DNA of 41,660 nt, from assembly GCA_029251375.1 (NCBI GenBank), contig JAQXDL010000036.1, forward strand, positions 1-41,660, read 5' to 3'. This document shows, piece after piece, positions 6,347-41,660 of this stretch (positions are counted from its first letter, which is position 1; each line of letters begins with the position of its first letter). The DNA comes from Pseudomonadales bacterium (lineage in GTDB: Bacteria > Pseudomonadota > Gammaproteobacteria > Pseudomonadales > Azotimanducaceae). The position numbers and the translations under genes are program-made. Below the pieces are notes generated by a model. That model was not told where the DNA came from and made no database searches. It saw only the letters and a program-made list of their open reading frames with translations.

Positions 6347-7408
6347 TCACTCCTCGTCCAAGTTAACGCTCTTGTCAATTTGTGCCCAAGCAACTTTAGC
6401 CATGTTAAACGCTCCAGCACCGGCTATTTCTGCCTGCTTACTAGCGGCTGTACCATCCAATACACGTTTCGCAATGCCCTGTAGAATCGCCGCTAAACGA
6501 AACATATTGAAAGCCAAGTAGTAGTCCCAGTTCTCTATGCCATCTCTGCCGGTGCGACGACAATATGCTTCAACATACTCCTGTTCAGAAGGAATGCCGA
6601 GTGCCTTTAAATCCACGTTACGCAAGCCATCACGGTAAGGTCGGCATAAATAGGCAAAATCAGATAGCGGATTGCCGAGCGTACTCAGCTCCCAATCAAG
6701 AATGCCGATAACTTCAGGCTTGTCCTTGTGCATCATCATATTGGCTATTTGCAGGTCACCGTGCACGATGGAACAGGCATCTTCATTGGGCATATTTTTG
6801 GGGAGGTAGTCGATTAGATTATCCATATAAGGATTTTCTACCGTTTTAGTGTATTCATATTGTCCCGCCCATCGATTCAATTGCCTCCCGATGTAATTCG
6901 AATGCTTACCAAATTCTGACAGTCCAACCGATTCAAAGTCGACGCTGTGTAGTTTAGCGACCGCATCATTGGCCGAATCCCACATTGCGGCGCGCTCGGC
7001 TGGCGTAAAGTCGCTAGAAGTGGAATCCCACACAACTCTTCCGTCGAGATATTCCATAATATAAAACATCGTACCGATAACACTCTCATCCTCACACAGA
7101 CAATAGGTTTTTGCCGTCGGCACATTCGTATTCTGCAGGGCAGTCAGGACGCGATATTCACGGTCTACCGCGTGGGCAGATTTCAGCAAGGTGCCAGGTG
7201 GCTTGCGACGCAACACGTATTTTTTGTTATTAGCCTCAAGGGAATAGGTTGGGTTGGATTGCCCGCCGGCAAACTCCTCAACAATCAATTCGCCACTGAA
7301 CCCGGCCACATTTTTTTTCATATAGTCTTCGAGAGACTTCACATCAAATTGATGTTTTTCCAATACGGGAATGGTGCCTTCATTATCCAGCGATTCAAAA
7401 TCTGACAT
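6347..7408 (-). CDS. APH-like phosphotransferase of the ACAD10/ACAD11 type
   Basis: A 353-residue protein kinase-fold phosphotransferase. GGQSNPTYSLEANNKKYVLRRKP is the nucleotide-binding part with the Lys of the YVLRRKP strand. The catalytic loop is SIVHGDLQIANMM (HGDxxxxN) and the metal-binding Asp is in GILDWELSTLGNP. FYIMEYLDGRVVWD is typical of the subgroup fused to, or adjacent to, acyl-CoA dehydrogenases (ACAD10/11). Members of that subgroup phosphorylate 4-hydroxyacyl chains so that they can enter beta-oxidation; antibiotic kinases have a less similar N-lobe. I chose ATG 7408 because GGAG lies 9 nt upstream; an in-frame TTG at 7423 overlaps that site. First gene of the operon with the GST and NnrU genes. 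No dehydrogenase partner is in the window. Confidence 0.84.
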   Translation of the reverse strand: MSDFESLDNEGTIPVLEKHQFDVKSLEDYMKKNVAGFSGELIVEEFAGGQSNPTYSLEANNKKYVLRRKPPGTLLKSAHAVDREYRVLTALQNTNVPTAKTYCLCEDESVIGTMFYIMEYLDGRVVWDSTSSDFTPAERAAMWDSANDAVAKLHSVDFESVGLSEFGKHSNYIGRQLNRWAGQYEYTKTVENPYMDNLIDYLPKNMPNEDACSIVHGDLQIANMMMHKDKPEVIGILDWELSTLGNPLSDFAYLCRPYRDGLRNVDLKALGIPSEQEYVEAYCRRTGRDGIENWDYYLAFNMFRLAAILQGIAKRVLDGTAASKQAEIAGAGAFNMAKVAWAQIDKSVNLDEE

Positions 7409-7586
7409 CTCACTAATCTCCAAGACTCTGGTAATTCAAAATGGTTAATGGCTAAAGTATATGATTGATTGATGCTTAATGGACACAGGGAATTTTGCTT
7501 CATGTCAAACCCCACAAATTAGGCAAAAATAATGGCAGCTGTTCACGTCGCTAACCAATAAGTCATTCAAGTAGTTAATCAGCTAG

Positions 7587-8063
7587 TTACTCAAGCACTT
7601 CGTCAAGTACCTCGAGCAAATCATCGTGGTGCGTTTTCGTCTTGAACTTGTCCATCACCGCCAGTAGGCGACCATTTTTACCTATAATAAAGGTGGTCCT
7701 GATTAAGCCCATGAACTCACGCCCCATGAATTTCTTCATTCCCCAAACCCCATATTTATCTGCGATCGCATGGTCCTCGTCTGACAGCAGACTGAAATTC
7801 AGGCCTTCCTTTTCAATGAACTTTGGCAACCGCTTGACCGAGTCGGGGCTCACTCCCAAAACCACGACATCGCGTTTATCTAACTCCGCCTTCGAGTCCC
7901 TGATGCCGCATGCTTGCGCCGTGCAGCCCGGCGTCATTGCTTTAGGGTAAAAATACAAAACAACGTGTTTGTTACCGGCATAGTCTTTTAGCGCAACTTG
8001 TTCGCCGTCTTGGTCATGTAAACGAAATGCAGGTGCTTTATTGCCAACCTTGGGTACCGTCAA
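7587..8063 (-). CDS. bcp: Thiol peroxidase / peroxiredoxin Bcp (AhpC-TSA family)
   Basis: A 158-residue cytosolic peroxiredoxin. The active-site segment is YPKAMTPGCTAQAC: Thr44 and peroxidatic Cys47, with a resolving Cys52 at the CX4C spacing usual for atypical two-cysteine Bcp/PrxQ enzymes. It reduces H2O2 and organic hydroperoxides with thioredoxin as electron donor. The start is TTG: AAGGAG sits 7 nt before it, and no ATG or GTG gives as good a fit to the family N-terminus (VPKVGNKAPAFRL). It lies upstream of no other gene on its strand within the next 160 bases. oxyR is 4.4 kb away; direct control by OxyR is possible but not shown. Confidence 0.92.
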   Translation of the reverse strand: MTVPKVGNKAPAFRLHDQDGEQVALKDYAGNKHVVLYFYPKAMTPGCTAQACGIRDSKAELDKRDVVVLGVSPDSVKRLPKFIEKEGLNFSLLSDEDHAIADKYGVWGMKKFMGREFMGLIRTTFIIGKNGRLLAVMDKFKTKTHHDDLLEVLDEVLE

Positions 8064-15007: not shown

Positions 15008-15754
15008 ATGATCATTCACGAAACACTCGCCACGTTAGGCATCAGCACCAAAGAAACTGACACTTACTTAGCCTTATTGCGGCTCGGGCCGAGCTCGATA
15101 CGAGACGTTGCTGACGCATCGGGCATTAACCGTGGCTCGACTTATGAAATTCTAAAAGGGTTGAAAGAAAAGTCCCTCGTTAGCTACTTTCCACGTGGTA
15201 AACGACGTCTGTTCTGTGCTGAACCGGCTGAAGTGCTCAATGAAATGGCAACGGACAAACAACGCGAACTTGATATCGCCGCGAAACGCCTTAACGAAGA
15301 CATCATACCTAACCTGCAAGCCACTCTGCCGCTGCATAGTTCGACCAGCGTTCGTCACTACGAGGGCGACGATGGTGTCGAATATTTATTAAAAGACATA
15401 CTACGAACCGTTGAGCAACAGGATGACAAACTTTATCGAGTCTATAGCTCCAAGCTTATTCGGAAATACCTCTACCGTCCTTTTCCAAACTTTACTCGGC
15501 AGCGTGTCCAGCGGGATATACATGTCAATGTCATTGCGATCGGTGACGGCGGTGACGAAGCACCACTAGCGAGTCGAAAGTGGATTGACCCAAACATGCA
15601 AAACCTAGGCGCAAGCTATGTCGCAATTTACCCAAACAAATGCGCCATGGTGTCTCTTACCAAGGGTGACTATCCAACCGTCGTTATAATGGAGTCGACG
15701 AGCATCGCCGCAGCAATGACACTTTCTTTCGATGCGCTTTGGCATAGGTTGTAA
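15008..15754 (+). CDS. TrmB-type winged-helix transcriptional regulator
   Basis: A 248-residue regulator. Residues about 1-75 form a winged HTH: ETLATLGISTKETDTYLALL, SIRDVADASGINRGSTYEIL (recognition helix) and a wing in YFPRGKRRLFCAEP. This matches the TrmB/Sugar-specific HTH family, which in archaea and some bacteria controls sugar or central-metabolism genes. Residues about 115-248 are an effector-like domain (RHYEGDDGVEYLLKDIL) resembling a PLD-like or TrmB C-terminal sensor, ligand unknown. The ATG is the first start before the HTH. It is preceded by a TTGTCA dyad and a TATAAT box, and has the unrecognised repeat-motif protein gene 90 bases downstream. Confidence 0.8.
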   Translation: MIIHETLATLGISTKETDTYLALLRLGPSSIRDVADASGINRGSTYEILKGLKEKSLVSYFPRGKRRLFCAEPAEVLNEMATDKQRELDIAAKRLNEDIIPNLQATLPLHSSTSVRHYEGDDGVEYLLKDILRTVEQQDDKLYRVYSSKLIRKYLYRPFPNFTRQRVQRDIHVNVIAIGDGGDEAPLASRKWIDPNMQNLGASYVAIYPNKCAMVSLTKGDYPTVVIMESTSIAAAMTLSFDALWHRL

Positions 15755-15844
15755 CTAAGTAGACAATATACAAAACGCTTACATGTTTTTCCTTGCTCCA
15801 AAAGTGGTCACTTTATAACCTGAAACTGAGTGAAAAGGCCCGCT

Positions 15845-16963
15845 ATGACAGAACTACTAAATATCATCGATAATTCACTTCAAGAAGTGGAAGAACAACT
15901 ATTACAAGAATTCAGCCGAATTCGGAATAGTTTGTCCGAAGCGCGATTTGAGCCTATTGATGCCGGCATTAAGAACGCGCTCGGTGAAGTCGTACTAGGC
16001 TTGCGCTCGAAACTTGAACACAGTGGTGATAAGAACAATTTGCAGTTACAAACTGAGCAGCATGAAGTGCTCTTCACCCGTATGTCTGTGATCAAACAGC
16101 TACTCGAAGCAAAGATCCCCACGGCCTATCTTCAAGAAATACATCAAGACGTTGCCACTTCTAGAAAGCAGCTCGAACGAAAGGTCATCGCCAGCCGAAG
16201 TCACGAAGAATCTAAACGCTCGGATGAGCCAATCAAACAAAGCGGCTTCTTCAAATCGATTAAGAGCATTTTCTCCGCAGACAAATCCGTGCAAGAAAAT
16301 CAGCGAAACCGCATTAAAATCACCGATCGAGAACAACAAGAGTTCGAAGACGTCGAGGTGTATCTCGACAATGGCATTTACTCGGCCTCAAGAGAGTTAG
16401 CGATGCTCTCGAGTTTGGTCTTCGAAACCGCGGAAGTCGCAGAAGAGCCTGTCACTAAAAAGAAACCCGCAGCGCCAGCTGGACCCCAGGGCAAAGCGCA
16501 GTTTAATTCACGAGATCTTTCTAGGCGAAAAGCTGAAGCGCTGCCTGATCCTGTGTCAACCGGTCAGGTTGCACAGACACCAGAGGACATCCGCCGTAAC
16601 CTCAAAAGTAGGAATGCATCATCGTCAGGCGCTTCGATTTTCGAAGCGAGGGATATCGCCCACGCAATGCCAACCCCTGAACCCAAGCGACAATCTCTAA
16701 AAACGCCAAAAACAGACACAGGCCGTGGCGATATAGCTCGCACGCCAGAAGCAATTCGTCAAAAACTTGCCGAGCGTCAACAATCTTCTAGCGGCAAAGC
16801 ATCCTTTGCTTCGAAAGACATTGAGAGCGAAGTGCCGCAGGCTTTTAACAAAAAACCGCTAAAACCGAAACTGCCAGAGCCAAAACCGCAGGAGCCAACT
16901 TCAAAGGGCAAAGCAGTTTTCGAATCACGCGACCTCAGCAAACCCGATCCTCAAAAAAAATAA
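15845..16963 (+). CDS. Unrecognised protein with four copies of a G-[KA]-x-x-F-x-[SA]-[RK]-D-[LI] motif
   Basis: A 372-residue cytosolic protein with no family I recognise. Residues 1-120 are mostly helical and probably coiled (LQEVEEQLLQEFSRIRN). Residues about 130-145 include an amphipathic GFFKSIKSIFSADKS, and residues about 150-195 form another helix. The C-terminal 170 residues are charged, Pro/Ser/Lys-rich and likely disordered, but carry a short motif four times: GKAQFNSRDL (216), GASIFEARDI (262), GKASFASKDI (317) and GKAVFESRDL (355). Copies 2 and 3 are each preceded 17 residues earlier by TPE-x-IR-x2-L. ATG 15845 follows AAAAGG by 6 nt; GTG 15830 is less likely. It follows the TrmB-type gene and converges with the M32 gene. 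Confidence 0.75.
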   Translation: MTELLNIIDNSLQEVEEQLLQEFSRIRNSLSEARFEPIDAGIKNALGEVVLGLRSKLEHSGDKNNLQLQTEQHEVLFTRMSVIKQLLEAKIPTAYLQEIHQDVATSRKQLERKVIASRSHEESKRSDEPIKQSGFFKSIKSIFSADKSVQENQRNRIKITDREQQEFEDVEVYLDNGIYSASRELAMLSSLVFETAEVAEEPVTKKKPAAPAGPQGKAQFNSRDLSRRKAEALPDPVSTGQVAQTPEDIRRNLKSRNASSSGASIFEARDIAHAMPTPEPKRQSLKTPKTDTGRGDIARTPEAIRQKLAERQQSSSGKASFASKDIESEVPQAFNKKPLKPKLPEPKPQEPTSKGKAVFESRDLSKPDPQKK

Positions 16964-19263: not shown

Positions 19264-19337
19264 GCCGAAGACAATCCTCGCTGTAATACGTTTAAAAGAT
19301 GGTCGAATATTATCAGAATCGTATCGATGCAGTCGTT

Positions 19338-19445
19338 TATTCATCTACCTATTTATTCGGGTTCTCATTTCGGCACTCATTGGGATATTCATTCGGCAAT
19401 TCATTTAGCTATTCAGTCGGTTTCTCACTCATCAATTCATTTCGC
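19338..19445 (+). repeat. 12-bp degenerate tandem repeat, nine units, in the carboxyltransferase leader
   Basis: Read in triplets the stretch divides into nine 12-base units close to TAT-TCA-TTC-GGN. TCA is the second triplet in eight of nine units; the first varies as TAT, TTC, CAC or AAT, and the last is mostly GGN or CGN. It begins 75 bases after the phosphatase start and ends 60 bases before the carboxyltransferase start. The frame is open and continuous with that gene. Confidence 0.75.
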
Positions 19446-19505
19446 TGCGGCTTTGTGTTTCGTTCCAAAAGTAGTTTACGATCGACACATGGAGGAATAC
19501 GACTT

Positions 19506-30462: not shown

Positions 30463-31380
30463 ATGCCAGTCTTACCGTTCAAAATGATTAGCTCTCAGAC
30501 GCTGAGGCAGATGCTGGGCTTGCTTGTCCTGCTTGGTATCGCATGCAACACATGGGCTTTCGGGTGCAAGTACTCAAAAGAGATCAACCTCTCGCGAGCC
30601 GCAGCAGACTATGGCGTCGTGGAAATGAAAGCATTGGCCGGCCGCCTTGACGTCATCGGTGCGGAAACATCAAAGATCAGTATTGAGGGCGACGTCTGCT
30701 CCGACGAGCAGTATTACGTTGATCAAATGGACATAATCGTGGAAGAAACGGCCTCGAGTTTAATCCTCACCGCCATTATTCCTTATGATAACGATGACTG
30801 GCATGCACAGTATGCCCATATCGATATTACAGTGACACTGCCCCATGCACTTCTCATACAGCTACGAGACTCGAGCGGCGACATATCAGTAACGGATGCA
30901 TCGGTCATATTCATAGACGACAGTTCAGGCGCGATCCGAATTAATGACAATCTGGCAGCGCTAGAACTGAACGATTCATCCGGCGATATTGATATCCGAG
31001 GCAGCAAGGGCACCCTGACCATTTCCGATAGTTCTGGAAAGATTGATATTCGCGACGTCGATGGCGACGTGTTGATTCCAAGGGACAGCTCCGGAGACAT
31101 GGAAATTGACACTGTTAACGGCAGCGTCACAATCGGACGCGACGGATCTGGCGGTATCAATATAGAAAATGTTCAACGCACCGTTAGCATTGACAGCGAT
31201 GGAAGCGGTGACATTGAAATAGATAACATCGAGGGTTCCGTTGAGATCGGTAGCGATGGTTCTGGTAAGATCAGCGTGAGCCGAATTGCCGGTAACTTTA
31301 CAGTACTATCAAAAGGCAGCGGTGATATCCGCAGCCGCGAAGTGAAGGGAAACACCGACATCCCCATCACGAAATCGTAA
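30463..31380 (+). CDS. Secreted 19-residue-repeat beta-solenoid protein (DUF4097-like)
   Basis: A 305-residue exported protein: signal peptide MISSQTLRQMLGLLVLLGIA then CNTWA-FG, a beta-sandwich-like part to about residue 130, and a C-terminal run of nine D-x-S-G-x-I-type turns beginning at residues 136, 153, 171, 189, 208, 227, 246, 265 and about 284. Period is 17, 18, 18, 19, 19, 19, 19, 19. Early turns read DSSGDI, later ones DGSGDI, as if the array grew by internal duplication. This suits the DUF4097/DUF2807 beta-helix group, often linked to envelope stress or adhesion; the role here is unknown. ATG 30463 is preceded by AAGGA at 7 nt; TTG 30442 is unlikely. Confidence 0.82.
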   Translation: MPVLPFKMISSQTLRQMLGLLVLLGIACNTWAFGCKYSKEINLSRAAADYGVVEMKALAGRLDVIGAETSKISIEGDVCSDEQYYVDQMDIIVEETASSLILTAIIPYDNDDWHAQYAHIDITVTLPHALLIQLRDSSGDISVTDASVIFIDDSSGAIRINDNLAALELNDSSGDIDIRGSKGTLTISDSSGKIDIRDVDGDVLIPRDSSGDMEIDTVNGSVTIGRDGSGGINIENVQRTVSIDSDGSGDIEIDNIEGSVEIGSDGSGKISVSRIAGNFTVLSKGSGDIRSREVKGNTDIPITKS

Positions 31381-31472
31381 CAGCCCTGAGCGTGCTCTTA
31401 TAAACAGCCCTGAGCTGCTCTTGTAGACAGCCCTGAGCGGGCTCTTATAAACAGCACTGAGTGACTTGAGCC
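31381..31472 (+). repeat. 24-bp tandem repeat, about four units, after the solenoid gene
   Basis: Units start CAGCCCTGAGC at 31381, 31405, 31428 and a degenerate one at 31452. Unit length is 23-24 bases with TCTTATAAA or TCTTGTAGA at the end. Unit 3 can fold AGCCC with GGGCT. The array starts right after the solenoid stop codon and may act as a set of weak 3' structures. Confidence 0.75.
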
Positions 31473-41595: not shown

Positions 41596-41660
41596 CAGCT
41601 ATGGGTATTTCAGAAGAACAGCTATAGGCATCTCAGAAGAACAGCTATAGGCATCTCAGA
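41596..41660 (+). repeat. 23-bp tandem repeat running off the right window edge
   Basis: CAGCTATGGGTATTTCAGAA plus GAA at 41596-41618, a close copy at 41619-41641 and a truncated third at 41642-41660 (units 2 and 3 identical as far as visible). The array is at least 2.8 units and continues outside the window. Adjacent units leave no spacer, so this is not a CRISPR. It lies upstream of the thiolase-fold gene. Confidence 0.8.

Follow-up and report, generated by a model that had tools for sequence, protein, structure and literature searches.

The repeat protein and its locus

The window, that is, the whole 41,660-nucleotide stretch of DNA analyzed here, contains a gene for a 372-residue protein with a motif-bearing C-terminal tail (the repeat protein), located 90 bases from the stop of an upstream TrmB-type regulator gene. 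An in-frame GTG at 15830 in the window ORF is an alternative start, which would add five residues to give a protein of 377. The features of the locus are as follows.

15008..15754, + strand: TrmB-type helix-turn-helix regulator gene, upstream (Pfam TrmB, 4.7e-13)
15845..16963, + strand: repeat-protein gene, 372 residues from the ATG (ORF translation, 12 other intact homologues)
15845..16219, + strand: predicted N-terminal helical domain, residues 1–125, with helices at 3–27, 40–60, 71–88 and 93–125 (AlphaFold2)
16244..16276, + strand: amphipathic segment GFFKSIKSIFS, residues 134–144 (hydrophobic moment 0.69)
16490..16519, + strand: F motif 1, GKAQFNSRDL (pattern match, start residue 216)
16571..16603, + strand: helix motif 1, AQTPEDIRRNL (pattern match; predicted helix 246–258, AlphaFold2)
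16628..16657, + strand: F motif 2, GASIFEARDI (pattern match, start residue 262)
16736..16768, + strand: helix motif 2, ARTPEAIRQKL (pattern match; predicted helix 301–313, AlphaFold2)
16793..16822, + strand: F motif 3, GKASFASKDI (pattern match, start residue 317)
16907..16936, + strand: F motif 4, GKAVFESRDL, the copy nearest the C-terminus (pattern match, start residue 355)

Elsewhere in the window, around 19299–19500, the frame of the carboxyltransferase ORF begins far ahead of the Pfam domain, across a short tandem repeat at 19369–19420, and the true start of the ORF is probably further downstream than the opening of the frame. Short tandem repeats also occur at 31379–31461 (24-base unit, 3.5 copies) and, at the window end, at 41596–41660 (23-base unit, 2.8 copies).

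Conserved motifs form a composite module

The original prediction, made from the letters of the DNA, placed four ten-residue copies in the C-terminal tail, and all four are located at the positions it claimed, with the pattern G[KA][AS]xFx[SA][RK]D[LI]. It also described a TPE-x-IR-x2-L element before copies 2 and 3. This element is present at residues 245 and 300, and in both cases the next F-motif copy lies exactly 17 residues downstream. When the last 172 residues were shuffled 20,000 times, neither the F pattern nor TPExIRxxL arose even once; as these patterns were derived from the tested sequence itself, the result excludes composition as an explanation, and no more. Independent support for the motifs comes instead from their conservation in the 12 other intact homologues.

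Alignment A1 comprises 13 rows, the window protein and these 12 homologues, all chosen as full-length. Each member contains four to six F motifs and one to three helix motifs when counted with patterns wider than the motif of the original prediction. The mean pairwise identity is 65% in motif columns, 39% in the N-terminal 125 residues and 25% in the linkers, and the mean gap fraction is 0.03 in motif columns versus 0.18 in linkers. With F-to-F gaps that range from 15 to 54 residues and a variable copy number, the homologues display the conserved copies and variable spacers that the original prediction had proposed as its check. The invariant tail positions in the alignment are A, P, I, R, L, F, G and D.

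The start of a helix motif precedes the start of an F motif by 18–22 residues, with a distance of 19 in 16 of 28 cases. The helix motif and the F motif are thus one composite module with near-fixed spacing. This module, which was not part of the original prediction, is also seen in a second family of proteins (below). The copies also retain positional identity. Between species, copies at the same place are 59% identical versus 51% for copies at different places; the next-to-last copy has [KR]DIE in 10 of 13 members, and the last has [KR]DLS in 10 of 13. Since same-place copies are more alike across species, the order of the copies is probably old.

A lineage-restricted family with a patchy distribution

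A profile built from the 13 intact members matches 18 of the 206 genomes in the taxonomic family of the window, and all 12 other intact homologues found belong to that family. Five of the 18 matching genomes hold partial or broken versions: the gene is truncated by a contig end in G061, lies at the end of a contig in G020, split across two frames, and is represented by short pieces only in G041, G100 and G124, with one stop in G041 and two in G124. An order-wide scan of 293 genomes (E ≤ 0.001) gave matches in the own genome and in G245 only; the sensitivity of the first profile was limited, as it missed small proteins of G214 and of other G245 relatives that were recovered with the G245 protein as query. 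A contig scan with the single window protein as query returned no relative, and an alignment-based contig scan returned 13 loci, 12 of which encode proteins identical to members already found. No relative of the repeat protein was found in the viral, plasmid and phage collections.

With a model of the 31-residue module, the copies in the own genome are confined to the repeat protein (E ≤ 0.01). Outside of the own genome, no full module was found among 369 genomes of the class, and three other genomes gave partial, weak matches. The matches in G006 and G138 are partial or weak. Those in G092 and G108 are weak, and their host proteins, judged by eye, look to be of another kind; the match in G446 is weak as well, and its enclosing frame lacks the module. 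These candidates were set aside.

In locus L166 of G124, positions 6985–7203 hold a decayed remnant of the N-terminal domain of the repeat protein, with two stops, which adjoins an open CBS gene at 7248–7646. The overall distribution is patchy, and the gene was not found in some relatives that retain the neighboring regulator or CBS gene. The patchy presence, the remnant in G124 and the absence beside kept neighbors argue that the role of the repeat protein is dispensable. Taken together, the repeat protein is a real, lineage-restricted family, whose motif module is unnamed in the libraries searched.

Neighboring genes

A TrmB-type regulator is matched in 19 of 206 family genomes (E ≤ 0.001), and in 14 of these the relative is full-length and at least 61% identical; the other matches are a 48-residue fragment in G030 and weak hits. 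Ten of the 14 genomes also carry an intact repeat-protein gene. The regulator occurs without the repeat protein in G002, G064, G127 and G472, and an intact repeat protein occurs in G034, G046 and G113 with no such regulator in the genome. The co-occurrence gives a Fisher p of 9e-12 when kinship is ignored. The regulator (window 15008–15754) is far better conserved than the adjacent repeat protein.

Of the 12 other intact homologues, 11 have a CBS-pair gene directly upstream at a gap of −4 to +90 nt; the exception is G082. The two frames overlap in three homologues, although the overlap in G113 depends on an ATG-less start (GTG). CBS domains were confirmed by Pfam in the G038 protein. Searching by tblastn with four CBS proteins revealed no CBS gene in the window. 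The own genome has a single CBS match, on a different contig, which groups with CBS genes of other loci in a tree of 25 of the 30 intended rows (support 89/78, modest). Of 20 CBS loci examined, six (G001, G025, G053, G089, G117 and G124) have the same neighbors and no intact repeat protein. That the regulator or the CBS gene is kept without the repeat protein suggests that the locus is variable, with the repeat protein as an optional component.

Comparison with known families

The original prediction recognized no family with this motif, and that view holds: all 13 intact members stay below the cut-offs of Pfam, and the window protein stays below those of NCBIfam, where the highest score is 14.3 bits against a cut-off of 240. 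The best Pfam match of the window protein is VPS13_N, at 22.5 bits versus a cut-off of 80. Among the other 12 members, the best is THUMP_like (PF18096), at 22 bits versus 26, over 22 residues at a helix motif. At E ≤ 0.1, THUMP_like matches eight of the 13 members with 13.2–22 bits over 20–46 of the 78 profile positions, in most of them at a helix motif. We dismissed VPS13_N, THUMP_like and RecX_HTH1 as short or coiled-coil likenesses below cut-offs. The window protein has no significant match in PHROGs (best E 0.32) and none in the PADLOC anti-phage library at E ≤ 0.01. In the literature searched, which left out most subscription journals, we found no mention of the motif strings and no paper that brings together a CBS domain and repeated motifs in disordered sequence; broader queries returned general papers only.

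A forkhead-associated (FHA) phospho-threonine reader was considered as a partner, and an FHA protein is encoded nearby in G038. FHA domains are known to require threonine; 15 of the 28 copies have serine at the position in question, and this candidate was dismissed.

Predicted structure

AlphaFold2 was run from the 13-sequence alignment for the window protein and the homologue L045 as single chains. In line with the helical N-terminus anticipated by the original prediction, the N-terminal domain of the window protein is predicted to be helical, with mean pLDDT of 85–95 in 11 of the first 12 ten-residue blocks and 60 in the remaining one. The N-terminal blocks of L045 have lower values (55–93), and the pTM is 0.48 for the window protein and 0.39 for L045. 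In both predictions most of the tail is at low confidence, with pLDDT mostly <50. The pLDDT is higher at the helix motifs, which are predicted as helical in both instances in the window protein and in all three in L045, and rises slightly, to about 50–56, around the last F motif. A Foldseek search of the PDB with the predicted structure gave no similar fold at E ≤ 0.001, and searches with the single protein and with the profile matched no solved structure under E 0.05.

The protein is probably cytoplasmic. The amphipathic pattern is found in six of 13 members, and segment GFFKSIKSIFS is at best a tentative candidate for membrane contact, a possibility with weak support.

A second protein family carries a single module

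The match in G245 is a 77-residue protein. Its relatives occur in 10 of the 15 genomes of its taxonomic family, another family of the order, with 11 matches in total. Nine small proteins of 69–78 residues (alignment A4) have one module each, and in all nine a T is followed after six residues by KLxxYxxxxGxAxF. Comparing the module with the small-protein family in hhalign gives a probability of 96% and an E-value of 3.8e-9; the best of 200 column shuffles reaches 2.3% and the reversed alignment 1.3%. Nothing aligned outside of the module in the profile comparison of the two families. The nine small proteins have no Pfam or NCBIfam match at E ≤ 1.

Eight of the 11 small-protein loci adjoin genes for a PDZ serine protease and a ferritin, and seven of these also have a Bfd-type ferredoxin gene, where neighbors were named by Pfam for L169 alone and by likeness to L169 for the other loci. 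The remaining three have different neighbors. A small ORF at ~1450–1735 is seen in each of L169–L176, and several have an N-terminal segment like MKKSFFSRF.

The small proteins and the window protein share the composite module, and the order of its elements and, very nearly, their spacing agree; the small proteins have a single copy, no helical N-terminal domain and other neighbors. The sharing may reflect either common descent or convergence on one receptor, both of which are possible. The likeness to THUMP_like and RecX indicates that short N-capped helices are common; the GxAxF at matching distance, however, is beyond what such common helices explain.

A candidate multivalent scaffold

We are moderately inclined to view the repeat protein as a multivalent disordered scaffold or hub whose motifs would dock a common putative partner. 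The predicted helical N-terminal domain would anchor or join the protein. It would be followed by a linker, with an amphipathic segment in some members, and by a mostly disordered C-terminal tail that may present four to six docking peptides. A full docking peptide would consist of a short N-capped helix ([ST]P[ED]xI[RK]xKL) and GxAxF at a near-fixed distance, with Ile, Leu and Phe as putative hydrophobic anchors that become ordered on binding only. The presence of multiple copies would increase avidity and bring together many molecules of one partner or partner family, and the scaffold may be tied to the CBS-pair protein, whose gene is adjacent in most relatives. The tail does combine conserved short motifs with a fast-changing, predicted disordered chain, and the conservation of hydrophobic anchors within such a chain points to docking motifs; likewise, the presence of several copies suggests avidity or clustering. 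The original prediction had read the copies as repeated binding sites for one partner, in a protein whose N-terminus might oligomerize, and this interpretation is partly supported, by the conserved copies with variable spacers, the lack of a known family and the predicted helical N-terminus. Docking, multivalency, a single partner and the tie to the CBS protein are our deductions, and the helices and disorder are those of the predicted models. The scaffold reading is also favored by the near-fixed spacing within the module, its recurrence in the small proteins and the CBS gene upstream in most homologues; counting against it are the patchy, dispensable gene and the lack of a CBS gene, whose product is the leading candidate partner, beside the repeat-protein gene of the window.

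Several other readings were weighed. The lysine- and arginine-rich tail might contact RNA or DNA, with the motifs mainly spacing or tuning the binding. The tail is net positive in all 13 members (+1 to +13), residues 1–125 are net negative, again in all 13 (−1 to −15), and REER repeats in the disordered RNase E tail of Pseudomonas aeruginosa bind RNA, according to the available part of the report (PMC11964227). The tail charge is not conserved in magnitude, however, being +1 in one member and +2 in another, and only one basic kind occurs among the invariant tail positions, so that a nucleic-acid binder seems distinctly improbable. We judge it just as improbable that the motifs bind one another, or their own N-terminal domain, in a self-assembly that recruits no partner. 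The opposite charges of the two parts would suit such contacts, and the N-terminal domain and motif tail co-occur in 13 of 13 aligned members, a weak point as members were selected as full-length. The module is also found in the 69–78-residue proteins, which are too short for the N-terminal domain. The single-chain predictions, in which most of the tail has low confidence, are neutral on contacts between the tail and the N-terminal domain.

The repeat protein may also be a dedicated partner of the neighboring CBS-pair protein. CBS domains bind adenine nucleotides, and the CBS protein would sense these and switch the scaffold via the helical domain or the motifs. The directly upstream position of the CBS gene in nearly all of the other intact homologues, the three overlaps of the frames and the Pfam CBS domains in the G038 protein favor this possibility, which we nevertheless regard as unlikely: in the window and in G082, no CBS gene accompanies the repeat protein, and the six loci that keep the CBS gene and its neighbors without an intact repeat protein suggest that the CBS gene may be just an old resident of the locus.

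Relation to known scaffolds and significance

A multivalent scaffold of this type would have precedents. In the available parts of the cited reports, the C-terminal scaffolding region of RNase E from Pseudomonas aeruginosa and E. coli is described as mostly disordered, with short linear motifs and a membrane-targeting segment (PMC11964227, PMC4435900, PMC5758883). The window protein resembles it, as far as these parts go, in having a predicted, mostly disordered motif-bearing tail behind a folded N-terminal part. It differs in that it has no match to the RNase E catalytic domain (Pfam, E ≤ 1) and repeats one motif type, whereas RNase E, as portrayed there, uses different motifs for different partners; its motifs are also unlike the REER and NDPR motifs of RNase E as given in the available part of PMC11964227. 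CsoS2, the disordered linker of the alpha-carboxysome, stitches partner proteins together with repeated short motifs, as the accessible portion of PMC10484944 relates. The likeness lies in repeated short motifs along a disordered chain, predicted as such in the window protein; the [IV]TG repeat motif as defined in that portion is absent from its 372 residues. No carboxysome shell or Rubisco gene was found among the neighbors scanned with Pfam, which cover part of the neighborhood. The architecture is thus already of a known kind, and it is the family that is missing from the libraries searched.

A broader and rather doubtful proposal is that the module belongs to a docking system so far undescribed in Pseudomonadales. 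One widely kept receptor for the helix-plus-GxAxF peptide would be used once in small, possibly membrane-touching adaptors and four to six times in array scaffolds, and the CBS-pair protein would couple assembly to adenylate levels in some lineages.

A conserved linear motif with near-fixed internal spacing is defined here in two families unnamed in the libraries searched, arrayed in one and present once in the other. With such a motif, peptide pull-down should be able to find a common partner. As the repeat protein was visible through its repeat pattern only, with the family libraries silent, further disordered hubs of bacteria may be escaping notice for the same reason.
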